A stretch of 64,000 nucleotides of DNA from a virus, in IMG/VR virus record IMGVR_UViG_3300045921_000463, positions 16,457 through 80,456 of that record. One strand, given 5' to 3'. The notes under the pieces are model-generated. The model was not told the DNA's origin and did no database searches. It saw nothing but the letters and a program-made list of their open reading frames with translations. The translations under genes were made by a program, and so were the position numbers. Positions 10,315 through 64,000 of this stretch are shown here, piece after piece; the stretch's first letter is position 1; every line of letters begins with the position of its first letter.

Positions 10315-10856
10315 TGATCGCTTCTTTTGATCCTGATCTTGCGACTGACAACAGATGGAGTCTTTGCAGAAACCGTTTTGTCGAGGGAACGCCGCGTCTT
10401 GCGCTTTATGTCGGTAGCCTGCGGAACCACGATGAACTCGTCATTTGAGTTCTCAAGATCGAGTTCCTTGATGCGGATGTTGTAGTTGTCGCCCTTGACC
10501 GGCGTTTCCAATAACAGGGTTACATCGGAACCGAGAATATTGGTAACGTCAGTCTTGCTGACGCGAATGCAGCGAAGGAACTGGTCTTCCGTGATTTCGC
10601 CGCCTTTCAACTTGGCGTACAGATCGGCAGGGTTGATGATGCTCGACTCCGCTGCATCGTAGGTAATCTCGTGACCGTTGGTGCGTATGGTTGTACCAAG
10701 CGTCCATTCGTTGGACTGAATCCTGTTCTTGAAGATGTTGCGAATTTCCGTGGAAAGACGATTGAAAGCGTTGGTGTGCTCCTTTTTCAGGCTATGCTGT
10801 TCAAGAAGCTTTACGAGAGCGGTTTTCAATTCGTTCGGAAGGGGCAACCTTGGCAT
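10311..10856 (-). CDS. Hypothetical protein
   Basis: 181 aa, mixed helical N-terminus and a beta-rich middle (VTLLLETPVKGDNYNIRIKELDLE), basic C-terminal tail of Arg/Lys-rich residues. No family recognised. Start 10856 has GGAG 7 nt upstream and overlaps the polymerase 3' end by 56 nt; the stop overlaps thyX (ATGA). Its position between polymerase and ThyX suggests a replication role, and the basic tail would fit DNA contact, both inference. Confidence 0.72.
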   Translation of the reverse strand: MPRLPLPNELKTALVKLLEQHSLKKEHTNAFNRLSTEIRNIFKNRIQSNEWTLGTTIRTNGHEITYDAAESSIINPADLYAKLKGGEITEDQFLRCIRVSKTDVTNILGSDVTLLLETPVKGDNYNIRIKELDLENSNDEFIVVPQATDIKRKTRRSLDKTVSAKTPSVVSRKIRIKRSDQ

Positions 10857-13800
10857 TGCAACGCTCCATGGGTTTTGTAGTGGTTTTATTGTATCGAGAA
10901 TTACTACTGTTGTAAAGTTTTTTCGTCGATAGTGCTGCTAGCTTTTCTTCAACCTCGCGCATTTTTGCAATAGTCTTTTCGTCCTGTGAATTTATATCTC
11001 TTAATTTTTTAAGCTCATCATTAAGAATGTGTCTGATTATATCCGTGTAAGTCCTGTTGCCGGACTCTACAGAGAAGTACTTTGGTTTTACTTCGTAGGT
11101 TTCGGCGAGGTTTCTGCCGATTTCGGCGTCAGCTACAATAGGAACGGTAGGCTTCCATCCGAACCACTTTTCGAGCGGCAGATTTTCCATTGTTTTCTTG
11201 ACAAGCCGCATCGTTTTGGCGGCATACTCTTCCTTGGCAATACAGATGATGGAATCGTGGATGAATCCGCATATCTTGATGTGCTCCCACAACCCTGTAT
11301 TGCGCAGATAGGGAACAAGAAGACCGATTGCCATGAGCCCAAGATCGGAAGCAAAGCTCTGCACTGGCGAGTTGATGCCCTGACGTATTGCCTGCTTCGC
11401 AATGGCCTCGTCGGAACTGTCAACCATCGGAAGATGTCGTATGCGTCCGTTGAAGGCCCGCACATATTTGTGCTTCTTTACCCATTGCTCGACGCGGCTA
11501 TGCCATTCTGCAAGGCGGGGATACGTCTCAAAGAACATTTCTCTAAGAGATGCCGCTTCCTCGTCCGTAAAGTCGATACCGTAATCGGTTTTGGCGTATT
11601 CGCGGAATTTTTTCCACCACATGCCGTATAAAAACCCGAAATTGACGCTGTTTCCAGAGATGGTGACACGTCCGTTTCGTCTGACAACAACATAGGAGGA
11701 CGGCACAGTGACACAGTATACTGTCTGATTGTCAGCAGTCGATACGGACCAGTTATTGCGCTTGAACGGATTACGCTCATTGCTTCTGAAAGAAACCTTG
11801 AATGTCTTGTTTGAGCAAGAAACGAGATTGCTTGTTCTGTTGGACAACGTACAGACAATCTGCACAAAATTGGCGTTCTTCCTTTTAGAAGACGAATAGA
11901 AACACAAGCTTCGTGACGACTTTTTGTAACTATGCCCATCCCAACGGGGCAACTCGTCGAGAAAGGCTTCCTTATCTATTACCGACAGTAGCGACACATC
12001 AAAAGTCTTGTCCGGCATGTATGCCATTATACGCTTTGCGACAGAATCCTTTTTCGGCAAGTAAAAGAAAGTTACTGCCTTTTTGTCAGAATCGAAAAAC
12101 ACACTGGTAGAGTAATCGACTCCAGCGGCGTCGAGCAGTTCACGGCATCTGTTTATTTTACGTTGCTTTGAAAAACCCAAACGGATTGCTCCATTGTTTT
12201 GGTAGCTTCCGTCAGCCTGAACCATTACAAGCAATCTGGTAAACAAGGGATCAGCATCAGTTGAATCTGGATAGTAACCTGCATGGCAGCTTAGTACGCT
12301 GCCAGCCGTATCGTTGTAGGTAAGGTCTTCCGCAGCACGCTCATACGGCATCTTTGTGTACCGACTGAACAAGAGCAGCCTGTGGTTTGGGGTTACGGCA
12401 AGATCGGTACTCTTGTCTTGTATGATTACTACTTTCTGATTTTCGTAGCGATGAAAAGCCAACGGCTTTACAAAGCTGATCACGCCGCTTTCCCACTGCG
12501 CAACTTCAACATCCTGCGGCAACCTGTCGAACCTGACAAATCCTGAGGTTGTCAGGATTTCCGTATCGCCAGTGTAGCATTTTGATTGGAATCTTTTGAG
12601 GTCTTGAACCTCTTTTGAAAGCTTCAAGAATTCTTCAACAGATATGCCCATGATACCCGCCGCAGTCGAGCGGTGAATGTCGCCGCCTTCCTGATAGACC
12701 TGCATCATACGTTCGTCGCCGCTGATCATTGCTGCGATTCGCAACTCGGCCTGCGAAAGGTCAAGCTGAATGTAGACATGGCCTTCCGGGGCTTGAAACG
12801 CCTTTCTGAAAGTCTTTGCCATTTTCCCGCGCTTGGGAAAATTCTGACCATTGGGCGAATCTGAGCAACTACGACCTGTAGTCGTCTTGTGAAGAGAATA
12901 AGAAGGTCTGATACGCCCGTCATAGATGTACTTGTAGAAGCCCGAAATGTATGTATTCAGCATTTTCTGGTTCTTGATGTAGTCAGTAAGCCGCGCAATG
13001 AACGGATGGTCAGCAACATAGTAGGGAAGCGCCGTCTTTGACGAAACGGACGGCTTGCCGGTCTTGGTGTACTGCATTGGCTTCAAGCGCAGACCGTCGG
13101 GATGGTTGTAAAGGTAATCGACAAGGATTGCGTCACGATCAGGTTGCAGACCTACGCCTGTGTCTTTGTGAATGGACTTGATACTTACTGGAATCTGCGA
13201 AAGCAGCCATTCCTTTTCCTTCTCTTGGATGCCTCGCAAGTATTGCTCGAACTCTCTTAGGGCATCCACGTTTATGTAAAAGCCGGTCTGCTCCATGTAG
13301 CAGAAGGCGCGAATAGCGCGCATTACAGTCTTGCGATAGCAAGCCCAAAGTCTCTTGTCGCGCCGCAGTTTCGGCAATAACGTGTTATAGAGACGCAAGG
13401 CAGCGTCTGTATCGCCGCATCCGTAAGCTATCATCTTGTACGGCGGAACAAGGTCCATGCGCGTCTTGGACTGATGCACGGGGTCTTTGTTGAACTCGTC
13501 CGCATACCCCGCCATGGCAGGGACATGAAGTCTTGCAAGATCGTCTAGACTCTTGGAAAGGAGGTTTTCATCAATAAGGTGCGCCATCAGGATGGTATCG
13601 GCATGATAATTGGCAATCTGTATGCCGAGCTTGTAATGAAGCATCAGCCAGTCAAATTTCAGGTTATGGCCGATGACCTTTACTTTCGTATTCTCAAGCA
13701 GCCGTTTCAGTTGGGCAACTATTTTCGGTCTGTAGGTTTCATAGCCGCCCGGAAAGTCGATCACGTTGTGAAAGCGCAGATCGCCTGCATCATAATCTAC

Positions 13801-14529
13801 AGGCACAATGATACTTTCACCCGGCTTGATGCCGAGTTGAACCGTGAGAAGCCTAGTACTCGGATCGAACGGATACAATCCGACACTTTCGACATCGAGG
13901 GAAATGAGGCTTGGCGGGTCTTTCAGCAGATGTTCAAGATCGTAACACCAACGATAATTCACAGCGATCCTTGCGTGTGAGGCTTCGGCCTTGAACCCTC
14001 CTCTTGCAACGCGACCGAGAGTTTCAAGGTCTGCGAGGAAGATGTTCTCGGACTCCGGGTGCTTCCTTGCGAAGAATGGTGAGGTCATGGGAAGAACAGG
14101 AGTAGTTCCGAAGCTTTTGCTGGACTCCAGTACCTGCCCTCGAACCTTGGTTATCTGGACACTGCGCCCGATCACCTGTTGACAGGCTTTGGCACCCATC
14201 GGAACGATAATGAATGGCCGGAGTTCGTTTACAACCTCGACAAAGTGAGGCTCCCATTCCTTTAGAATCGAAGATACTGTCCTGTTGCTTGTGGATTCTT
14301 CGTAGGTAATGGAACGCGCGCACGAGAGAAATATTACGTCCTTTTCTTTCAGGCCGGTATGTTTCAATACGCGGGAACCAAGCCATTCAAGATCGTCCTT
14401 GCGAAGTGGAATGCTCAATGGCTGCGCAGAAATTACCGGATCGAGTACGACCATTACCTTGGCAGTCGTTCTTCCGAGGTGCGGAAGTCGTATTTCTACG
14501 CTGGCGTTTCTGTTGGTTGCCGCACTCAT
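10801..14529 (-). CDS. DNA polymerase I with N-terminal UDG-like domain and an intein
   Basis: 1242 aa precursor. Residues about 20-175 resemble a uracil-DNA-glycosylase fold (VVLDPVISAQ, a PMGAKAC segment, MTSPFFARKHPES), as known for phage SPO1 polymerase. A DnaQ-like 3'-5' exonuclease follows (LDVESVGL, IGHNLKFDW, YGCGDTDAALR). The family A polymerase has motif A DLSQAELRIAA, the O-helix, and motif C FIHDSIIC, where Ser replaces the usual Glu after Asp. A 310-aa intein (651-960) splits the O-helix after its Lys. Removing it leaves 932 aa. A charged C-terminal tail of about 70 aa follows the polymerase domain. Start overlaps the helicase stop (ATGA). Confidence 0.9.
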   Translation of the reverse strand: MSAATNRNASVEIRLPHLGRTTAKVMVVLDPVISAQPLSIPLRKDDLEWLGSRVLKHTGLKEKDVIFLSCARSITYEESTSNRTVSSILKEWEPHFVEVVNELRPFIIVPMGAKACQQVIGRSVQITKVRGQVLESSKSFGTTPVLPMTSPFFARKHPESENIFLADLETLGRVARGGFKAEASHARIAVNYRWCYDLEHLLKDPPSLISLDVESVGLYPFDPSTRLLTVQLGIKPGESIIVPVDYDAGDLRFHNVIDFPGGYETYRPKIVAQLKRLLENTKVKVIGHNLKFDWLMLHYKLGIQIANYHADTILMAHLIDENLLSKSLDDLARLHVPAMAGYADEFNKDPVHQSKTRMDLVPPYKMIAYGCGDTDAALRLYNTLLPKLRRDKRLWACYRKTVMRAIRAFCYMEQTGFYINVDALREFEQYLRGIQEKEKEWLLSQIPVSIKSIHKDTGVGLQPDRDAILVDYLYNHPDGLRLKPMQYTKTGKPSVSSKTALPYYVADHPFIARLTDYIKNQKMLNTYISGFYKYIYDGRIRPSYSLHKTTTGRSCSDSPNGQNFPKRGKMAKTFRKAFQAPEGHVYIQLDLSQAELRIAAMISGDERMMQVYQEGGDIHRSTAAGIMGISVEEFLKLSKEVQDLKRFQSKCYTGDTEILTTSGFVRFDRLPQDVEVAQWESGVISFVKPLAFHRYENQKVVIIQDKSTDLAVTPNHRLLLFSRYTKMPYERAAEDLTYNDTAGSVLSCHAGYYPDSTDADPLFTRLLVMVQADGSYQNNGAIRLGFSKQRKINRCRELLDAAGVDYSTSVFFDSDKKAVTFFYLPKKDSVAKRIMAYMPDKTFDVSLLSVIDKEAFLDELPRWDGHSYKKSSRSLCFYSSSKRKNANFVQIVCTLSNRTSNLVSCSNKTFKVSFRSNERNPFKRNNWSVSTADNQTVYCVTVPSSYVVVRRNGRVTISGNSVNFGFLYGMWWKKFREYAKTDYGIDFTDEEAASLREMFFETYPRLAEWHSRVEQWVKKHKYVRAFNGRIRHLPMVDSSDEAIAKQAIRQGINSPVQSFASDLGLMAIGLLVPYLRNTGLWEHIKICGFIHDSIICIAKEEYAAKTMRLVKKTMENLPLEKWFGWKPTVPIVADAEIGRNLAETYEVKPKYFSVESGNRTYTDIIRHILNDELKKLRDINSQDEKTIAKMREVEEKLAALSTKKLYNSSNSRYNKTTTKPMERCNAKVAPSERIENRSRKAS
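11650..12579 (-). other. Intein with LAGLIDADG homing endonuclease, in polymerase O-helix
   Basis: 310 aa. It starts at Cys (CYTGDTEIL, block A), has block B with TPNH, a LAGLIDADG motif LLVMVQADG near residue 116 and a second, degenerate one (FLDELPRWDG), and ends ISGN before +1 Ser. The penultimate residue is Gly, not the usual His. The flanks FQSK and SVNFGFLYG join into a normal O-helix. Low in the dispersed palindrome, consistent with separate origin. Splicing is predicted, not shown. Confidence 0.88.
13374..13390. repeat. Dispersed palindrome, site 6
   Basis: TAAC-2 bp-GTTA. Inside the polymerase exonuclease region. Confidence 0.78.
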
Positions 14530-31095: not shown

Positions 31096-34000
31096 TTACA
31101 CCTTGAGCTCGTATTCGGCTACCAGGGGTTTGACAAGAACATTCGATAGCTGCCTGATTCGTACCCTCAGGGTAGAGTTTCTCGGCAGTACGATTCCAAA
31201 ATCGGCTATCTGCTGACTACCTGTATACGTATAGGTTGTACTGTTGTTTACAGTAACTTCTCTGACAATATCGGTATTGTCCAATATTGTCAATCTGTAG
31301 GACTCAGAGGACTCGGAAAGCGGGATTTCCTCTAGGTTGAATGAATCGGACTGCAAGGAACGATCCCTGCGAATCCAGTTTATAACGATGTTATTATCCG
31401 TTCTGTATGTTATCGGGTGTACCGAAATAACCGGAGCATACGGAGAAAGTCCCCTGCCATCCGGTGTATATTCGATTTCAGAAAACCGTTGGTCTGACAA
31501 CGGTACACCCAGAGGGCCTACTGTTATACTGGTTTCGATGCCGATGTCTTCGATGCCGTAAGGTAGTTCGTTTCCTTGTCTGCGCAGTAGCACAAGTATG
31601 CTATCGACAGGTTTTTCCTGCGAACTGTTCACATCGGTTCCGAACAAACCCCTTATCAGTTTGCTGAAACGGTAGGTTCTTGTTCCTACAAGTTGTATGT
31701 TCTGTACAGAAATGATTTCGTATTCGTTATTCGGGTGTACTACCGCAAACAGATTTATGTTGTTCAGGAATTCGCTGTCGCTAACGCTGACCATCGTCTG
31801 TTCGCTCATTACGGCAGTAAATTCTGTCCCGTGATCTATGACATGAGGCTGGCCCGGCGGTAACTCTGTCAACAGAACACCGAAAATGGACGGTGTTTCT
31901 ATAGCCACGGACTCGCCTCCTTCCGTGATGACTACGGCGCCAAGCCCCCACTGCGGAGAGAACGACCTCACTTCTACGCTGGTTTGGCTCTGTTCGTTTC
32001 TATATACCGGCAAATCTAGAACCTGTGTAAAGAACCCGCTGATGCGTCTGTCTGTTTGCGTAGTATCCTTCGGGATTATATCGTCATAAAACGCTGCATC
32101 GAGAATTGCCGGATTGAACGACCTGCATTCGATTTTCAGCATGTCGAGAAAATCTGTACGAGCAACCGTATACCTGTAGACATTGCCGTTTTCGTTCACT
32201 ACTTCTATGCTATCGCCGGGATGAACAACGCCATAGGACGGCGGAAGCGATCCTTGAAGTATGTTGCGGGAAGCCCATGTGTTGTAGTGATAGATGTGGG
32301 CCTGCCTGTAAAGACATGCAGGATATGCCGAAAACGGGAAGTTTTCGGCGTTTCTCGAATCAGAAACCGGAGACTCATAGTAGCTGTCAACCATGATGGT
32401 CTTGTAGCCGCCATCGGACCTCTGCGCCGACCATGACAGATATGCAGGCAATTCCTTGTCTGCTATTCTCTCTACCGACACGGATGGTTCTTCATCTCCT
32501 TCGTTCCAGAGAAAATGCTCGAACGGTATTCTGTGATCGGAGCCGTTACCCCTGTGTGAAAATTGCAGTATGCCTTCCTTTTCGTATCCGTCGAAAAGGA
32601 AAAATCTTGCAACAGGCTCTATACACTGTGTCGCAGACATTGCGGTGATTATGACGTAACCCTCTACCTGCCCGTATAGTTTGTAGGTATCTATCCTGTT
32701 TGGATCGACACCGGCTTCTTTGCACAATTCGTAAACAAGCCCAGCTACGTCGGCTGATCCTATACGTCCGGTAATCCAGTGCCCGAACTCCCAGTTTGCA
32801 CGGTCATTCCACATGTCGTTTTCGACTGGAAACTCTGGATAAGGCCGAGCATCCCAAGTCCATATGGACGTGTTGTTCAGATCGAGCATCGGAAGGTTGG
32901 TAACAGTCGATAACGGGTTATTGGCGGAGTCCGACCAATAGTAATGTAGCGCCTTTATGTATTGTCTTTGAATTATCGTATCGAACCACGATCTTGAGAA
33001 ATAGGGAACCGCACTTTCCGAGGACTTCGGATCGAAAAACACGTTTGGCTGGTTCGTGCCTCGGTCGATGGCGGGGCATCCGGCTTCCGTAAACCAGAAC
33101 TGTTTCGACTCCGGCACCCATGCCGTAGGTGCACCGCTTTCTATCCCGTTCGGGCGATTGAAGTGTTGATTCGACCACCAGTTGCGCAAATCCTTGTAAC
33201 GAAATACCCACGGCTTGTTGTACGCACCATCTGTTATTGGCGTTCTGATCTGCGCTTCGCGGTCGGCATTCGAAGCGTAGAACCAGTCATAGCCCTCACC
33301 ACGTGCAATGTTGTTTTTCAGGTAATCTATGTCGTATATTGTCTTCCACCCCTCTTGCGCGTCGAGGTGATTGAACCCGTCGCGCCAGTCGGAGAGCGGC
33401 ATGTAGTTGTCGATGCCGATAAAGTCGATGTTCGAGTCTGACCAGAGCGGGTCGAGGTGGAAGAACACATCCCCACTGCCATCTTGCGGCTGGTGGCCGA
33501 AGTATTCCGACCAGTCCGCAGCATAGCTTATCTTGGTGCTGGACCCAAGAATGGCTCTGACATCGGCAGCAAGTTCTATAAATTTTTGCACTGCGGGGTA
33601 GTTGGATGCGTTAGAGCGGATTGTGGTAAGCCCGCGCATTTCTGAACCGATCAAAAAAGCATCCACACCTCCCGCTGCTGCACAGAGGTGTGCATAGTGC
33701 AAAATCATCCTGCGAAAACCCCACTCTGTCGGCGATCCGGTCCACGACACGTTTGTGCCGGAGACAGAAAAATCTGTGATAGAGGCATTTCCAAAAAAAC
33801 TGTTCACTTGCGCAGCGGCAGCGGCAGTTTTATCTACGCTTCCCGCATATCCACTTGCCGGGGAACAGGTAATCCTGCCCCGCCAAGGAAAAACGGATTG
33901 TCCCGTCTGCGAGGCGTTATCGCTGTAGGGATCGGGCAGAGTATTGTCAGGCGGCACGTCCATCAGGATAAACGGGTAAAAGGTGACTTTCAGCCCGCGC

Positions 34001-35082
34001 GCCTTTATGGCTGCAATAGTCTCGACAATGGAGTTATCAGAAGGCGTGCCGCCATAATAAGGTCGATTATTCGAGTCTTGACTTACCAAGTAAGCAGAAC
34101 TGCGCGTAACGCCGTTTACAGACCAAGACAACGGATCGGTTGCTACGCCGAACGTTTCCACGCCGGGACGAATTGTGCAGTCACCCGCTCTAAGATCGGT
34201 ACCAAACCAGGATACGACAATGGATACGGATTCCACATTCGGGCACGACGCTACGAGATTCGACAACGACTGCTCGACATGTGCAACACCGTGGCTGGTC
34301 AAGTTTACAAGTTCTGCTGTGTCTTCCGAGTTGGTTATGATCTGTATATCGTTTGGCGGAAGCACATTAGATGTTATCGGCGTAGTGGCATAAACGAACT
34401 CGCCGGAAGAAGGTATCAGTGTTACGGACCTGATCATTGTTTCTGCGCTGTATTCGTTATCGACAGGTTTCATTACCTCAAACTGTATCTGCGGAATCCT
34501 GTTTCCGTAGTCGGTAAGCAGCAAGTCTTCGAACACCACATAGCACAGCCCACGGTAGGCAGGTGTATTGTCTACCCCTTCTATGCCTTGTATGAGTGTG
34601 TCCGGCTGCTGGCCTTCCGTTCCTAGGTATACACGTGCATTGAAATCGGCGATATTGGCCGGTTCGCCGTCAACCCACATTCTGCCCAGACCGCCGACCG
34701 GCCCCTCGCATATACCGATGGCAAAACTGGCATAGTAGTTGTAAGTAGTCTGTGTTTGTTTACGAACTCCCTTGCGACCTCCTACTTTTTGTGTGACGAT
34801 TTCCTCGCGAAAATCCGTAGCCCATATGATGTTTCCGCCTATGCGTACCCTTCCGTAAACACGCGGTATCGGAACACCCTCTGTAGAAGTTGTGACAAGC
34901 AGATTGTCCAATCTTGGCCCGTATATGGGCTGAGGTCTCGGACCGAACAACCAACTATCGACATAGCCGCCGAGGAGCTTGCCAGCATAGGTGCCGATTG
35001 ATGCGGCACTTATTCCAAGAATAGCACCTCCGATCTTGCTGCCTACCAAACCACCTACTGCTGCAAACAGTAACGTTGCCAT
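31096..35082 (-). CDS. GTA gp15-like megatron tail protein with TIM-barrel-like domain
   Basis: 1328 aa, near RcGTA gene 15 in type. N-terminal hydrophobic Gly/Ala segment (LLFAAVGGLVGSKIGGAILG), then phage-tail protein region (GNIIWATDFREEIV), a TIM-barrel-like glycoside-hydrolase domain in the middle (about 440-740; LRGLTTIRSNASNYP, KISYAADWSEYFG, FIGIDNYMPLSDW, FWFTEAGCPAIDRG) and a C-terminal hub/baseplate region. It would form the tail tip and might act on surface glycans; the catalytic role is not established. Two palindromes lie inside (31380 and 32909). Confidence 0.9.
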   Translation of the reverse strand: MATLLFAAVGGLVGSKIGGAILGISAASIGTYAGKLLGGYVDSWLFGPRPQPIYGPRLDNLLVTTSTEGVPIPRVYGRVRIGGNIIWATDFREEIVTQKVGGRKGVRKQTQTTYNYYASFAIGICEGPVGGLGRMWVDGEPANIADFNARVYLGTEGQQPDTLIQGIEGVDNTPAYRGLCYVVFEDLLLTDYGNRIPQIQFEVMKPVDNEYSAETMIRSVTLIPSSGEFVYATTPITSNVLPPNDIQIITNSEDTAELVNLTSHGVAHVEQSLSNLVASCPNVESVSIVVSWFGTDLRAGDCTIRPGVETFGVATDPLSWSVNGVTRSSAYLVSQDSNNRPYYGGTPSDNSIVETIAAIKARGLKVTFYPFILMDVPPDNTLPDPYSDNASQTGQSVFPWRGRITCSPASGYAGSVDKTAAAAAQVNSFFGNASITDFSVSGTNVSWTGSPTEWGFRRMILHYAHLCAAAGGVDAFLIGSEMRGLTTIRSNASNYPAVQKFIELAADVRAILGSSTKISYAADWSEYFGHQPQDGSGDVFFHLDPLWSDSNIDFIGIDNYMPLSDWRDGFNHLDAQEGWKTIYDIDYLKNNIARGEGYDWFYASNADREAQIRTPITDGAYNKPWVFRYKDLRNWWSNQHFNRPNGIESGAPTAWVPESKQFWFTEAGCPAIDRGTNQPNVFFDPKSSESAVPYFSRSWFDTIIQRQYIKALHYYWSDSANNPLSTVTNLPMLDLNNTSIWTWDARPYPEFPVENDMWNDRANWEFGHWITGRIGSADVAGLVYELCKEAGVDPNRIDTYKLYGQVEGYVIITAMSATQCIEPVARFFLFDGYEKEGILQFSHRGNGSDHRIPFEHFLWNEGDEEPSVSVERIADKELPAYLSWSAQRSDGGYKTIMVDSYYESPVSDSRNAENFPFSAYPACLYRQAHIYHYNTWASRNILQGSLPPSYGVVHPGDSIEVVNENGNVYRYTVARTDFLDMLKIECRSFNPAILDAAFYDDIIPKDTTQTDRRISGFFTQVLDLPVYRNEQSQTSVEVRSFSPQWGLGAVVITEGGESVAIETPSIFGVLLTELPPGQPHVIDHGTEFTAVMSEQTMVSVSDSEFLNNINLFAVVHPNNEYEIISVQNIQLVGTRTYRFSKLIRGLFGTDVNSSQEKPVDSILVLLRRQGNELPYGIEDIGIETSITVGPLGVPLSDQRFSEIEYTPDGRGLSPYAPVISVHPITYRTDNNIVINWIRRDRSLQSDSFNLEEIPLSESSESYRLTILDNTDIVREVTVNNSTTYTYTGSQQIADFGIVLPRNSTLRVRIRQLSNVLVKPLVAEYELKV
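31380..31396. repeat. Dispersed palindrome, site 13
   Basis: TAAC-3 bp-GTTA. Inside the megatron gene. Confidence 0.75.
32909..32925. repeat. Dispersed palindrome, site 14
   Basis: TAAC-2 bp-GTTA with TTGGC flank. Inside the megatron gene. Confidence 0.8.
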
Positions 35083-53799: not shown

Positions 53800-55827
53800 T
53801 CAAGCAGATTTATGCCTACTTGCAGATCTTCGAACAATTTTTTTTCGTAGCGTTCGCCGATGTATGCTTTCCTTGCCTTCCTGTTTCTTGAGCTCCATCA
53901 ACTCGATGTTTTCGTGCAAGGTACGACGCCCGTGCAGCATGTAGCCACCTTGTCCAACGAAAATCGGTTGCTGAGTCCAAGCTGCGCGTCTTGTCATAAG
54001 GTATGAGGCAACACCGCATACCGCATCGGCAATATCCTTGCTTCCTCCATTAGGGCGATGATCAATTTTTTCCTTGCTTCCGGCGCGAACATACTCAAGC
54101 TCTACCAGTTCCTTCATCAGATAATTATGGCGAGGCATGAATATACGACCATCGTTTATTGCATCACGAAAGGCAACATAGGGTTGCGGATTTCTGTCAA
54201 CCGAAAGATAGTCGGTTGCGTACCCCTTTTTTGCGAGAATCTGTCTGAAATCTACGGAGTTGAAACCGTCGGTAGTGACGATCTTGATAGGAAGTCCGTA
54301 TTTTTCCTTCAAATCGTATATGATCTGACGGATCATGGAAAAATCTATTTCGCCGTTGGGCGGAGGAACAATTCTTAGAACAACGTCGAAGGCAATGACG
54401 GGGAGCACTTCTGTTACTGTCTGGCCGGTTTCGAAATTTGTCCTGGTGCAGGTCTTGGTACCCGCGACATGCCCTATGGCAAGACCAGCCGCGTCCCTGC
54501 TTACGGCAAGGTCAACATGCGCTACTCGCATCTGTTTTACATCGGTACGAAGATTGGCTTCGATAACACTTGGTTTCGTGACGTGAAGATCGACTTCTTC
54601 GATGTTGTGAAGAAGCCTGTATCCGTACTGCTCCGCAAGTGACATGCAGTTGTAGATCGCTTCCCGATTCCGCAAAAACGGTCTGGTAGCCAGCGTGGTT
54701 CGACCAGCAAGGTCTCTGATCGAGCCGTCAACATCCTTGATGAATTCCGAACGGAAATCTTCCGGCACCTCTATGACTTCCATATCCGGCGGCGCAGTCT
54801 CGTTTTCGTTCAGTATACGAGACTTGTGCCGTTCGTTACCGACAAGAACGCGAAAGCTCTTGGGGCTGTACTTGTCTCTGCCTCTCGATTCCCATAGAGA
54901 CTTGGAAAACACGTAAATCTGCGGATCGGGTCCGCCCTGAGACGCTGCTTCTGCCGCTTTGATTTCCGTGAAGTCGTCAGGGTATCGTGAAGACGACACC
55001 AGAAAAAGGATACCGGGAAGTTTTCCGCGCGACATGAAACGGGAACGACGACGTTTTGAAAGATTCAGGTAAAGGTTTTTTGCCTGATCGTATTCGCCCG
55101 ATGTGTCTGCGTGTTCGTTCTTCGACTTGGCAACTTTTTGCATGAAGTTCATTTCGTCGAGCAAGCCGCCGATCACGTTCAGCGAGATTGCACCCGTGTC
55201 CGATGAAGACACTGGCATGACGGTAACGCGCTGCTCCCGAAACACCATTTCGGAAGTTATGCGCTTGTCATAAGGATACACCTTTGTGAAGTACGGCGAA
55301 TTGGAGATATAGGCCCCCATTTCCTGAAAAACGGCTTTCTTTGCCGTGCTGAGCCGAACCGACTGTATTGTAAAAACAATGGACGAATTCCTCTGCACGC
55401 CAAATGTGGCCTGCGGGTGCCTCAAACACGAAATCAGATAAAGCTGTCTCAGTATCCCAAGATTGGCGATAGTCGATTTGCCTGAACCGATACCGCCCTT
55501 GATCACAGCCTCTACGTAATTTCCGTTGTCAAGTTCGTGCAACGCTTCCGTTACCCCCGGAAAAAGTTCCGAAGGTCGAAGCCCGAGATACATCGAGCCA
55601 TAAAGAAACTCGTCCAGAGGGACAGGTGTACGGCGATATTTCGTAAGCTCGATCAACCTTTCGAAATCGCCATCCTTTCTGACCTGCTCGATTGCACGTC
55701 GAAGCTGATCGGTAATCGACGGGTCGTTCAATTGATCCAGTTCCTGCTGTAACCGGGTTATAGCTTCGTTTATTTCTACCTGCCGAAACGCTTCTAAAGA
55801 CGGCGGGAGCGTTTTTCTGGCAGGCAT
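53800..55827 (-). CDS. Terminase large subunit
   Basis: 675 aa. Packaging ATPase with Walker A GGIGSGKST (111-119), Walker B GLLDEMNFM near 225, coupling region, and a nuclease domain with the acidic triad in VAHVDLAVSRDA, IVTTDGFNS and KDIADAVCG. Basic C-terminal tail. GGAG 9 nt before the ATG. A palindrome lies inside near the start (55748-55764). Follows the small terminase gene closely. Confidence 0.92.
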   Translation of the reverse strand: MPARKTLPPSLEAFRQVEINEAITRLQQELDQLNDPSITDQLRRAIEQVRKDGDFERLIELTKYRRTPVPLDEFLYGSMYLGLRPSELFPGVTEALHELDNGNYVEAVIKGGIGSGKSTIANLGILRQLYLISCLRHPQATFGVQRNSSIVFTIQSVRLSTAKKAVFQEMGAYISNSPYFTKVYPYDKRITSEMVFREQRVTVMPVSSSDTGAISLNVIGGLLDEMNFMQKVAKSKNEHADTSGEYDQAKNLYLNLSKRRRSRFMSRGKLPGILFLVSSSRYPDDFTEIKAAEAASQGGPDPQIYVFSKSLWESRGRDKYSPKSFRVLVGNERHKSRILNENETAPPDMEVIEVPEDFRSEFIKDVDGSIRDLAGRTTLATRPFLRNREAIYNCMSLAEQYGYRLLHNIEEVDLHVTKPSVIEANLRTDVKQMRVAHVDLAVSRDAAGLAIGHVAGTKTCTRTNFETGQTVTEVLPVIAFDVVLRIVPPPNGEIDFSMIRQIIYDLKEKYGLPIKIVTTDGFNSVDFRQILAKKGYATDYLSVDRNPQPYVAFRDAINDGRIFMPRHNYLMKELVELEYVRAGSKEKIDHRPNGGSKDIADAVCGVASYLMTRRAAWTQQPIFVGQGGYMLHGRRTLHENIELMELKKQEGKESIHRRTLRKKIVRRSASRHKSA
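55748..55764. repeat. Dispersed palindrome, site 22
   Basis: TAAC-3 bp-GTTA. Inside the large terminase 5' end. Confidence 0.8.
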
Positions 55828-55828
55828 G

Positions 55829-56494
55829 TCATGGCTCCTGCGATTGCATCAACTGAAATATTGCGTTTGTCAGTGCCGCACGCTTTTCCTCGTCATGCTG
55901 AATGTTCTGCACACCGTCTCTTATTTCATGGTCGGGAACCGCACCGACACCGGCAGCGGTGTTGAGCGTCTTGCCCATGCGCAGACGCGCGTACTTTTCT
56001 ATAAGTTCGCCAAGTACCTGTACTTCCTTGTGCGTAGTGTTGAACAGTTTGCCGATGTTGCGTTCGCTGGCAAAATCAATCGAAATTCTGACCTTTTGCA
56101 GCGCAATCAGCTTGGCGAGTTCGGTTTCGGATGTCAGTATGGCAGCATTTCCGTCGAAAAGATGATCGTATGCCACGATACCGTCGGACTGGTTAGGGTC
56201 CATAAGCTTGCAAAGTTCCGGGTGCGCACGACGGAACATCGAAAGATACGCGATGGCAGTCTTGCGGTTTATCTGAAACTCGCCGCGCTCTATGAAAAAA
56301 TCGGCAATGTCGGAATTGCTTGTCCCAAGACGCATCATTGCGATGATGGTCGGATACTGGCTGTGATTCATGATGAAGTTGGTAGCAACAATGGTTTGCC
56401 TCTCGTAGGCCGTAAGAACACGCCCTTCGGTCTTGTTTGCCCCGACAGGCTTGGGAATTATGCGTCGGCGGCGGGTGTTCGGTCTGTTGCTCAT
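55829..56494 (-). CDS. Putative small terminase or DNA-binding packaging protein
   Basis: 221 aa. Basic N-terminus, then a helix-turn-helix-like region (TIIAMMRLGTSNSDIADFFIERG, INRKTAIAYLSMFRR) and long helices up to the C-terminus (VQVLGELIEKYARLRMG), fitting a small terminase that recognises packaging DNA. Sits between ParB-like gene and large terminase. ATGA overlap with the ParB-like stop. Confidence 0.68.
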   Translation of the reverse strand: MSNRPNTRRRRIIPKPVGANKTEGRVLTAYERQTIVATNFIMNHSQYPTIIAMMRLGTSNSDIADFFIERGEFQINRKTAIAYLSMFRRAHPELCKLMDPNQSDGIVAYDHLFDGNAAILTSETELAKLIALQKVRISIDFASERNIGKLFNTTHKEVQVLGELIEKYARLRMGKTLNTAAGVGAVPDHEIRDGVQNIQHDEEKRAALTNAIFQLMQSQEP

Positions 56495-57330
56495 TTACCC
56501 GCTGGCCTTTTGCGAACGACCTTCTTGTTTACAGCCTTGAGCTTTACTCCCGCACCGATTTCCCTTGCAGCGTCTGCTATGATCTTCTGCATGAATGACT
56601 GCATGGACTGTCCGGTAGAATCCAGACGATCACGCAACGCTGTTAACAGACTGTCTGTTGCGTCGTCGATCTGAACATAGTGGTGATTTTTTCCGCCGAA
56701 ACTGAAAACAAGGTACCCGGTTTCGGCTTCGCTGCCTTGTTCCTTGAAAATCTTGTGCAGGATCGAGCTCAGATCGTCTACGGATTTGATCTTTTCCTTT
56801 GCTTTTGCAAGAACCGCTTTCTGTTTGGGAGTCAGGGATTTTTCGATACCTTCGTAAACTGCCTCGAATTCCTTTTTCTCGGTGAAACCAAGCATGGTCT
56901 GCAACAGTTTCGGGTCGTACTTTCTTGCCAACTCTGTATATAGCTTGGTAAATTTCTGGGTATTCATCTGGCCGTGGACGATATTCCGCTTGACCAGCGC
57001 GATCTTTTGCTTGTCCTCGTCCCAGCTTTCCTTGATGACTGCGGGTACGTCAGCCATGCCAGCTACGCGCGCAGCCTTTACCCGATGGTGGCCGCTGGCA
57101 ATCAGATATTTTCCCTCGTCTCTGGGATGCGGAATGACGATGATCGGTTCGTCGAAGCCGCTTTCCTGTATCTCCTGAACAAGAATGTCGAACTTGTCCT
57201 CTTTCATCTCGTTAGGATTAAGCTCGTCCATTACGAGAAGTTCGAGAGGGATGTCGAACACTTGAAGCTTGCTTTGCTTCAAGTTTTCCTTGTCAGGTTT
57301 GCCAGCGGGTCGAGTAGTGAGCTTTTTCAT
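56491..57330 (-). CDS. ParB-like nuclease/CTPase-domain protein
   Basis: 279 aa. ParB N-terminal domain: LLVMDELNPNEM, VQEIQESGFDEPIIVI and the signature GHHRVKAAR at 80-88. The following region (TKLYTELARKYDPKLLQTMLGF) could be the helical DNA-binding part; the C-terminus is basic. ParB-like proteins in phages serve DNA binding, nuclease or base-modification roles. ATGA overlaps with both neighbours tie it to the glycosyltransferase and terminase. It is a candidate binder of the dispersed palindrome, as inference. Confidence 0.82.
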   Translation of the reverse strand: MKKLTTRPAGKPDKENLKQSKLQVFDIPLELLVMDELNPNEMKEDKFDILVQEIQESGFDEPIIVIPHPRDEGKYLIASGHHRVKAARVAGMADVPAVIKESWDEDKQKIALVKRNIVHGQMNTQKFTKLYTELARKYDPKLLQTMLGFTEKKEFEAVYEGIEKSLTPKQKAVLAKAKEKIKSVDDLSSILHKIFKEQGSEAETGYLVFSFGGKNHHYVQIDDATDSLLTALRDRLDSTGQSMQSFMQKIIADAAREIGAGVKLKAVNKKVVRKRPAGK

Positions 57331-61442: not shown

Positions 61443-61979
61443 TCATCGTCCAGAAAATACGCGGGGCCACCCTTTGTAATACTCGTGAGTGCAGCCGCGA
61501 TCAAAGCGGTACCACGCAGCGTCCTCGAAGCCCGATTTTCCGTTCTGCAACCAGCTTATACGTCCAACCGGAACGAAATCCGACATGTATTTCATTGAAT
61601 TCGTACAAAATCGCTCGTTATTTACCAGTGCAGACGACAAAAGCAGCCAGGTCGGTCTCAAAAGCGTAAAGTGTTCGATCATTTCCCTGAGAAGATTTTC
61701 CTTCCACGGGGGATTGGTGATAATGAGTTCTGCACCGTTCAGGTGTCTTTCTTCAAGCTGACGAAAGTCTAGTCGAACTATACTGGAATGTTGCGGTTCG
61801 ATGTCGTATTTCGCAACACAGCGAGCCACGGGTTTCAACGCTCTCACAAGGTGGTTGCCGCCCGCGCACGGTTCGCAGTAGGTCATTCCCCTGACATATC
61901 GGTAAAGAGGTAAAGCCGCCTTGAGCGGAGTAGGATAGTAATCTCTTTCGTGGCGCTCGAAGTCTGACCTTTTTCCCAT
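61443..61979 (-). CDS. DNA adenine methyltransferase (small phage type)
   Basis: 178 aa. SAM motif I region MTYCEPCAGGNHLVRAL, catalytic motif IIITNPPW, and DYYPTP near the N-terminus as in short phage N6-adenine methylases of the DNMT type. GGAG 9 nt before the ATG at 61979. Expected role is protection from host restriction; specificity not predictable. Confidence 0.82.
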   Translation of the reverse strand: MGKRSDFERHERDYYPTPLKAALPLYRYVRGMTYCEPCAGGNHLVRALKPVARCVAKYDIEPQHSSIVRLDFRQLEERHLNGAELIITNPPWKENLLREMIEHFTLLRPTWLLLSSALVNNERFCTNSMKYMSDFVPVGRISWLQNGKSGFEDAAWYRFDRGCTHEYYKGWPRVFSGR

Positions 61980-62065: not shown

Positions 62066-62077
62066 TTCTTTACGTTT

Positions 62078-62135
62078 TAGATTTTTAGTATTCTAGATTT
62101 TTAGTATTCTAGATTTTTAGTATTCTAGATTTTTA
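62078..62135. repeat. 16-bp tandem repeat TAGATTTTTAGTATTC
   Basis: About 3.6 exact copies. Each junction reads TTCTAGATT. The element TAGATTTTT recurs in the region to the right and in the noncoding block at 17.2-17.4 kb. Confidence 0.9.
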
Positions 62136-62159
62136 TACTACTTTTTACATATTTTTTCT

Positions 62160-62452
62160 AAAATTTTCGATACTATAAATAGTGCAGACTTTATTTTAGA
62201 TTCTTTATCTAGAATTTTTCAGACTTCATTTTACATATTCTTCCTAAAATTTTTAAGACTCTATTTTAGATTTTTCAAATAAAATTTTTTAAGACTTTAT
62301 TTTAGATTTTTCAAATAAAATTTTCGATACTATAAATAGTGCAGAGTCTATTTTAGATTTTTCAAATAAAATTTTCCAGACTCTATTTTAGATTTTTCAA
62401 ATAAAATTTTTTAAGACTTTATTTTAGATTTTTCAAATAAAATTTTCCAGAC
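62160..62452. repeat. AT-rich iteron-like repeats
   Basis: A 27-bp core, TATTTTAGATTTTTCAAAT plus AAAATTTT, starts at 62262, 62298, 62349, 62384 and 62420 (spacing 36, 51, 35 and 36 bp). Degraded copies lie left of it. The segment CGATACTATAAATAGTGCAG occurs twice (near 62168 and 62325). Confidence 0.85.
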
Positions 62453-62493
62453 ATATTGTGTTAGTGGGGGGGTGTTTTGGTGATTCGCTGAAT

Positions 62494-62524
62494 TAATTAA
62501 GCCGGGGTATCCCCGGCTTAATTA
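62494..62524 (-). terminator. Strong terminator after the 119-aa gene
   Basis: 14-bp perfect stem TAATTAAGCCGGGG with loop TAT; minus-strand downstream side is AATTC with T residues. It may work in both directions. Confidence 0.75.
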
Positions 62525-62548: not shown

Positions 62549-62908
62549 CTAGACGAATTGCGGCAGGCAAACGCAGAGTGTATCCCCGGCGCCGTGTTGC
62601 AATATGAGGCAAGCGATTTCCCCGCGCGGCATATCGCGCAAATGCGCAATGTCGAGCAGATAATCCGGAATCGAGCAATTATTGGCTTGAATAAAACCGT
62701 CCGTGAAGGGCGGAATATCGGGGGCGTGGACGTAAAAGGCACGCGCGAGATAGGTGTTTTTGATGATTTCCGGCAAAGAATGCGCGATTTCGATATTGAA
62801 GACGTTAGCCGCAATCGCGCGAATCGCGGAATCGGTTTCCGCGATATGTTCGGGCGCGGTGGAAAAAAAGAGGAAGTTGCAAGTAAGGCCGGGCGGATAG
62901 TTGCGCAT
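62549..62908 (-). CDS. Hypothetical protein
   Basis: 119 aa. Looks globular alpha/beta with several Cys (CNFLFF, NNCSIPDYLL, EIACLILQHG, LCVCLPQF). No family recognised. Weak ribosome site. Codon use resembles the next gene (frequent GCG, CGC, GAA, ATT) and differs from the body of the genome. Followed by a strong terminator. Confidence 0.68.
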   Translation of the reverse strand: MRNYPPGLTCNFLFFSTAPEHIAETDSAIRAIAANVFNIEIAHSLPEIIKNTYLARAFYVHAPDIPPFTDGFIQANNCSIPDYLLDIAHLRDMPRGEIACLILQHGAGDTLCVCLPQFV

Positions 62909-62982: not shown

Positions 62983-63693
62983 TTAGACCGGCTTGCGAGT
63001 GCCGAGATAACGCGAGTCGGCCCGCGCGCGATCCGTGGCGTGCAGGCGGTTCCCGTTATCGGAAACGGCGAGAAACCCCGCTTTGACGAGACGATTGATG
63101 GCGCCCGCGTCCGTGGCTTTCGCCGAACCCGAGTAGTAGGGATTCCGGCGCTTGCCGCTGCCCGCATCGGTGCCCGCCGCATGGATTTCCGCGAGGGTCG
63201 CGGAATCCCCGCGCGGCCGCATGACGGAACCGAAGAAATAGAGGAAAGCAGAGTCGCGATCGCTGAAAGTGCCGAAATTGGTGCGGCAGGCCGCGACCGT
63301 GTCGGCATCCCGAGTCGCCGTGCGGTAGGTGATTGCTTCCGCCGCCGCCGCTTCCGCCGCCGCCGCCGCTTCCGCCGCTTTCGCCGCCGCCGCTTCCGCC
63401 GCTTCCGCCGCTTCCGCCGCTTCCGCCGCTTTCGTGGCTTTGATTGCCGCCGCTTCCGCTTCCGCCGCTTCCGCTTCCGCCGCCGCCGCTTCCGCCGCCG
63501 CTTCCGCCGCTTTCGCCGCCGCTTCCGCCGCTTCCGGCGCTTTCGCCGCCGCTTCCGCCGCTTTCGCCGCCGCTTCCGCCGCAATTTGATCGGATTCGAT
63601 AGCGGAGTCGGCAGCTTGGATCGCGGCCCGGCGCGATTCCGCTTTCGATGGAACCGCTTTAGCGCGCGGCTTGCGCTTAGAGTCGTTAAGCAT
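62983..63693 (-). CDS. Ala/Glu/Lys-repeat protein with C-terminal winged-helix-like domain
   Basis: 236 aa. Residues about 1-35 basic. Residues 37-120 are almost only Ala, Glu and Lys in helical repeats such as AEAAAKAAEAAAK, predicted to be one long helix or coiled coil. The C-terminal 110 aa (FGTFSDRDSAFLYFFGS, AGAINRLVKAGFLAVSDNG) resembles a winged helix or a small DNA-binding domain. It is expressed from the strongest promoter context at the right end. A DNA-bridging or scaffold role is speculation. Confidence 0.72.
   Translation of the reverse strand: MLNDSKRKPRAKAVPSKAESRRAAIQAADSAIESDQIAAEAAAKAAEAAAKAPEAAEAAAKAAEAAAEAAAAEAEAAEAEAAAIKATKAAEAAEAAEAAEAAAAKAAEAAAAAEAAAAEAITYRTATRDADTVAACRTNFGTFSDRDSAFLYFFGSVMRPRGDSATLAEIHAAGTDAGSGKRRNPYYSGSAKATDAGAINRLVKAGFLAVSDNGNRLHATDRARADSRYLGTRKPV
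63333..63590 (-). repeat. Triplet-based repeat encoding Ala/Glu/Lys tract
   Basis: Minus strand is (GCG)n interspersed with GAA and AAA, with no T for long stretches. Codon choice is uniform (Ala GCG, Glu GAA, Lys AAA), so the tract arose by DNA repeat expansion. Confidence 0.85.
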
Positions 63694-63818: not shown

Positions 63819-63887
63819 GCCGGGCCGCGCCGGGCCGCGCCGGGTGCCGCAGGTGCCGCCTGGTGGCACGGGCCGCGCCGGGTGCCG

Positions 63888-64000
63888 CTGGGCGCGCCGG
63901 GTGCCGCTGGGCGCGCCGGGTGCCGCTGGGCGCGCCGGGTGCCGCTGGGCGCGCCGGGTGCCGCTGGGCGCGCCGGGTGCCGCTGGGCGCGCTGGGTGCC
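63888..64000. repeat. 19-bp tandem repeat reaching the window edge
   Basis: CTGGGCGCGCCGGGTGCCG starts at 63888, 63907, 63926, 63945, 63964 and 63983 (last copy has one change). It continues past the window. 19 bp is not a multiple of three, so it is unlikely coding. Each unit contains GGCGCGCC. Confidence 0.88.

Follow-up and report, generated by a model that had tools for sequence, protein, structure and literature searches.

The closest described systems are those of the Rhodobacter capsulatus RcF phages RcDurkin (MW677511) and RcTiptonus (MW677527), for which headful packaging of the P1 type was deduced by PhageTerm, the left end being defined and lying at the pac cut (PMC8601537). Both records start with ATAGT(CA/TC)CAAAAAATTCCAGC and have TATCTCT as their last bases. 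We have taken the record start as the reported PhageTerm left end; it coincides with the upstream limit of a block of AT-rich repeats, which is where the pac cut of these relatives is then placed. The records of RcMenchie and RcKickapoo, with no end analysis described for either, begin 0.24 and 1.1 kb further upstream respectively. In RcKickapoo the region is unbroken and runs from the gene p236 through a GC-rich terminator-like sequence, CACCCCCC, AT-rich repeats and a small ORF to a methyltransferase gene. In RcKickapoo and RcMenchie a pac cut at the core would fall at TATCTCT/ATAGTCAC, in which the slash marks the predicted cut. The literature that we found on RcF-like phages describes genome ends but no site motif.

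Sets of direct repeats also flank the cut at the pac sites of SPP1 and SF6, where packaging is likewise by the headful mechanism (PMC4737164, PMC6316719). These repeats need not be sequence-specific sites, as the DNA-binding domain of the SF6 small terminase, when isolated, did not recognise the direct repeats of SPP1 pac specifically (PMC4737164). At P1 pac a defined first cut is followed by headful packaging, repeated elements lie at the cut, and the site is controlled by adenine methylation according to Sternberg and Coulby (1990), as cited in PMC7617512.

The DNA considered here (the window, the whole 64,000-nt stretch that was analysed) comprises positions 16457-80456 of an 80,456-bp virus record, which by sequence comparison is a relative of the RcF phages, including RcDurkin and RcTiptonus. 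Its recognised genes all lie on the − strand, and the order on that strand is p236, a 119-aa ORF, a hairpin, a C-run, a 28-nt core, a repeat arm, a methyltransferase gene, a 72-aa ORF and the lysin gene (Table 1). The window and RcKickapoo agree in having p236, then a non-coding AT-rich region and then a methyltransferase gene, and the published pac cut of RcDurkin and RcTiptonus occupies the corresponding position in the gene order, immediately before the AT-rich repeats. A syntenic methyltransferase is present in RcMenchie, RcKickapoo and RcTiptonus; a homologue was sought in RcDurkin and none was found. The p236 product, a syntenic marker upstream of pac, consists of an Ala-rich N-terminus and a conserved C-terminal domain of about 100 aa.

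Table 1. Features of the predicted packaging region and the terminase genes (window coordinates)
Feature	Position	Strand	Evidence or remark
p236, 236-aa ORF	62983-63693	−	tblastn, 61-63% identity to RcKickapoo, RcMenchie and RcTiptonus; five IMG/VR relatives
119-aa ORF between p236 and hairpin	62549-62908	−	no family match
Hairpin, 14-bp perfect arms (62494-62507/62511-62524)	62494-62524	−	fold -27.8 kcal/mol, z -4.1
C-run CCCCCCC (gene strand), precedes core	62466-62472	−	every aligned relative has a C-run here
Predicted pac core, 28 nt, TAACACA/ATATGTCTGGAAAATTTTATT (slash, predicted cut)	62436-62463	−	ungapped alignment with RcDurkin, RcTiptonus and five IMG/VR relatives
Eight repeats of about 35 nt (gene strand GGAAAATTTTATTTGAAAAATCTAAAATARAGTCT)	62125-62446	−	downstream of predicted cut; first copy overlaps core
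About 20-nt insert CGATACTATAAATAGTGCAG, copy 2	62325-62344	n/a	sequence; fills one 51-nt step
20-nt insert CGATACTATAAATAGTGCAG, copy 1	62168-62187	n/a	sequence; fills the other 51-nt step
16-mer TAGATTTTTAGTATTC, 3.6 copies, 100% matching	62078-62135	n/a	far end of arm
DNA methyltransferase, NPPW motif	61443-61979	−	phrog_799, E 3e-27; just downstream of arm
Candidate small terminase	55829-56494	−	directly upstream of the large terminase gene; position conserved in about 20 relatives, most of those examined
Large terminase	53800-55827	−	61% identity to annotated RcF terminases; phrog_2, E 1.6e-4

p236 is a small gene that lies beside pac in several phages, and the N-terminus of its product changes fast. 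At the place of p236 RcDurkin has an unrelated-looking C-terminal domain, yet the same non-coding region. In bacterial genomes the p236 domain gave one weak match, in a metagenome-assembled genome, which we have not used as evidence. The hairpin that follows p236 and the 119-aa ORF is plausibly, and probably, the terminator of the upstream p236 transcript; GC-rich hairpins are also found downstream of the p236 gene in several relatives, although the one in the window failed the T-run rule of the terminator scan.

A first, sequence-only reading had described the repeat block as a gene-free, AT-rich iteron array, with a 16-bp repeat, a neighbouring palindrome and a GC-rich right end, and most of this description is borne out. 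The block (62075-62455, 381 bp) has 18% GC (0.181) in a genome of about 50% GC; nowhere else in the record does a 200-bp stretch fall below 0.335 (median 0.505), so that nothing in it comes close to the block in AT-richness. It has no evident coding capacity, the longest stop-free frame being 53 codons, the 3.6 copies of the 16-mer match perfectly, and the adjoining palindrome has perfect arms. The array of AT-rich cores with 35-36 nt spacing is also real, but it now has eight copies, which in a 43-nt register are spaced by 51, 35, 35, 36, 51, 35 and 36 nt, and the same segment of about 20 nt fills both long steps, so that there are two 51-nt gaps and not the single one proposed. The GC-rich right end exists too, although the record breaks off there inside a 19-bp tandem repeat and this is an assembly end. 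Indeed GC-rich tandem repeats are present at both ends of the record (8.7 copies of a 19-mer at window 63836-64000, and four copies of a G-rich 22-mer at the left end, L004 1-88); because both ends stop inside such repeats we regard them as assembly ends and not as established genome ends, probably the places where assembly broke.

TRF, a tandem repeat finder, scores the block at 185, whereas none of 200 dinucleotide shuffles scored above 91. We found the unit of about 35 nt nowhere else in the record, and an exact 25-mer of the repeat had no match in viral contigs. The sole match in an Rfam search was a tRNA, and the curvature of the block, computed with a wedge table, is ordinary.

We examined five IMG/VR phages that carry p236 (L187, L188, L189, L190 and L196) downstream of that gene. 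In all five a C-run precedes a 28-nt core, which can be aligned ungapped with the RcF sequence across the cut; the RcF record start falls after core nucleotide 7. With position weight matrices built without the phage under test, no other position in any relative locus searched comes within 9 bits of the core, which is also the top match in the whole RcDurkin genome (25.3 versus 13.0 for the next). The copy in the window is divergent: it differs from the RcDurkin core at 14 of 28 positions and, in the same leave-one-out search, ranks fifth of 160,858 positions (tied fourth in score). It moves to rank 1 (11.6 versus 7.6) once the 16 nt upstream must contain four Cs; as this requirement was set after seeing the alignment, the result is more a description than a blind test. 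With an nhmmer profile HMM it is the second-best match over the genome (E = 2.8). The clearest pairwise likeness is to L187, which has the closest terminase (78%) among the phages carrying p236: in a 108-nt comparison the local score is 31, whereas the best of 2000 shuffles gave 28 and none (0/2000) reached 31. Pairwise comparisons of the window's core with RcF, and with phages other than L187, gave no significant or convincing match. The core is absent, as far as searched, from Agrobacterium phage JP1, which has a related terminase; blastn of the core region against phages returned no match, and a strict core pattern applied to more relatives and JP1 recovered only the sites already known.

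The core and the array overlap. The right half of the core doubles as the first repeat copy in the window, in L187 and in RcKickapoo. Further copies follow it, five in the window (with at most 3 mismatches; eight in all in a looser register), four in RcKickapoo and one in L187, while none beyond the core were detected in L188, L189, L190 and L196. AT-richness directly downstream of the cut is common to more relatives than the repeats are, this stretch being in the lowest 0-10% of the locus or genome in 8 of 9, with L190 (19%) as the exception. Because the first repeat is half of the core, the copies follow on from it, and AT-richness is shared more widely than repetition, we regard the arm as pac sequence that has expanded locally. 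The expanded unit of the RcF phages is likewise the right half of their core. Their repeats have another sequence and a period of about 50 nt with ATAACCGATT. Direct alignment of the window's arm with the RcF arm was not significant, and direct homology between the two arms was set aside. In RcDurkin ATAACCGATT is clustered in the block (40-233) in one orientation and recurs singly elsewhere in both orientations (62557, 87103-87898, 88989 and 92833); it is possibly a regulator site there.

From these comparisons we propose that the block is most likely the repeat-expanded downstream arm of a pac site and not a replication origin. We infer pac function here from homology and synteny; the predicted cut would fall between 62457 and 62456 on the − strand. 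In this model the small terminase would gather on the AT-rich repeat arm and core, the repeats serving as its putative binding sites, and the large terminase would cut inside the presumably active, though divergent, core near that position, so opening the concatemer for packaging by the headful mechanism. Packaging would then proceed leftwards in the window, first along the arm and then past the methyltransferase and lysin genes.

The likeness to the RcF pac ends extends over the place in gene order, the C-run, a divergent form of the 28-nt core and AT-rich direct repeats downstream, together with a terminase that is 61% identical, although the RcF ends are published from PhageTerm whereas that of the window is predicted. 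SPP1 pac differs in lying in and before the small-terminase gene; in the window some 6 kb separate the core from the terminase genes. We noted no relation in sequence between the SPP1 or SF6 pac and the site here. P1 pac has short hexamer repeats, and these are not seen in the window.

The gene directly upstream of that of the large terminase suits a small terminase, but as a candidate only: an AlphaFold model of its product (pLDDT 78, pTM 0.39) has a four-helix N-terminal part followed by long helices, and no significant family, PDB or fold match was obtained. In RcDurkin the small-terminase candidate is gp24. A ParB-like nuclease gene (56491-57330, −) is situated two genes upstream of the large terminase in nearly all relatives examined, where it belongs to a conserved cassette. 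The large terminase genes of RcDurkin (L093 11620-14760) and of some IMG/VR relatives (L118, L120 and L135) contain an in-gene insertion of about 1 kb near the ATP-binding motif, probably an intein, which follows the equivalent of residue ~118-126 of the window's protein; the window's own terminase is without it. The DNA polymerase A gene of the window (10801-14529, −; 1242 aa) also appears to carry an intein: its polymerase domain is interrupted at residues 687-944 by a match to the Pfam intein-splicing domain.

A replication origin, as first proposed for this block, is the alternative that survives best, although we consider it unlikely. A phage initiator would then use the repeats as iterons, and the AT-rich DNA would melt and load a DnaB-type helicase, perhaps in a region separate from pac or overlapping it. 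Direct repeats next to an AT-rich unwinding element form the layout of SPP1 oriL and oriR (PMC6316719), and the window shares with these and with plasmid iteron origins the presence of direct repeats in what is here the most AT-rich DNA of the record. The description as a non-coding, iteron-like, cis-acting control region is fair. However, the block has no DnaA box, no initiator is recognised among the family matches of the neighbouring ORFs, and the relatives place the pac cut at its edge. Moreover, what is conserved is the core across the packaging cut, whereas the number and sequence of the repeats are not kept (eight in the window, five in RcKickapoo, two in L187 and none detected in four phages). 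The cumulative GC-skew minimum does lie near the block, but it is shallow and close to the ends of the record, which are biased, and the skew of RcDurkin does not turn in this way at the RcDurkin block; the check proved uninformative and skew was dropped as evidence for an origin.

Sigma-70-like hexamer pairs also occur about once per repeat, and the array might be a set of promoters facing the methyltransferase-lysin operon, a reading we hold to be quite unlikely. Nine promoter-like sites, all on the − strand, compare with 2.4 ± 1.4 in shuffles, and since the pac of SPP1 overlaps promoters both uses could coexist. The nine sites are, however, copies of one repeat and therefore count once or twice; each scores just 9/12, no like excess is seen in RcKickapoo (4 versus 2.0 expected) or RcDurkin (1 versus 1.2 expected), and the conserved core across the pac cut is left unexplained. 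That the repeats expanded neutrally between two genes, and that only the short core has a function, is very unlikely: 35-nt tandem repeats expand readily by slippage and repeat number is highly variable among relatives, but AT-rich DNA just past the cut is common to most of them, as described, and the RcF phages have likewise expanded the right half of the core.

Returning to the packaging site, a methyltransferase gene adjoins the predicted pac here, and P1 pac is methylation-controlled; any role of the window's methyltransferase at the site is putative, and RcDurkin has P1-type ends though no methyltransferase homologue was found in it. A more elaborate and decidedly improbable version of the model is a pac that is gated by methylation and has a docking array able to expand, in which the adjacent phage methyltransferase would mark the repeats such that only the first pac per concatemer is cut, repeat number would tune packaging starts, and the arm may double as an origin.

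The window also has a tail protein gene (31096-35082, −) whose product contains a GTA TIM-barrel domain (E 1e-154), like that of the gene transfer agent of Rhodobacter.

Packaging initiation is an ordinary phage function, and what the locus provides is a useful sequence signature for it in RcF-like phages: a C-run, a 28-nt core and an AT-rich repeated arm. With this signature, small-terminase recognition and any methylation control become directly testable in phages that infect a laboratory bacterium; the gene transfer agent of this host has genes in common with its phages.
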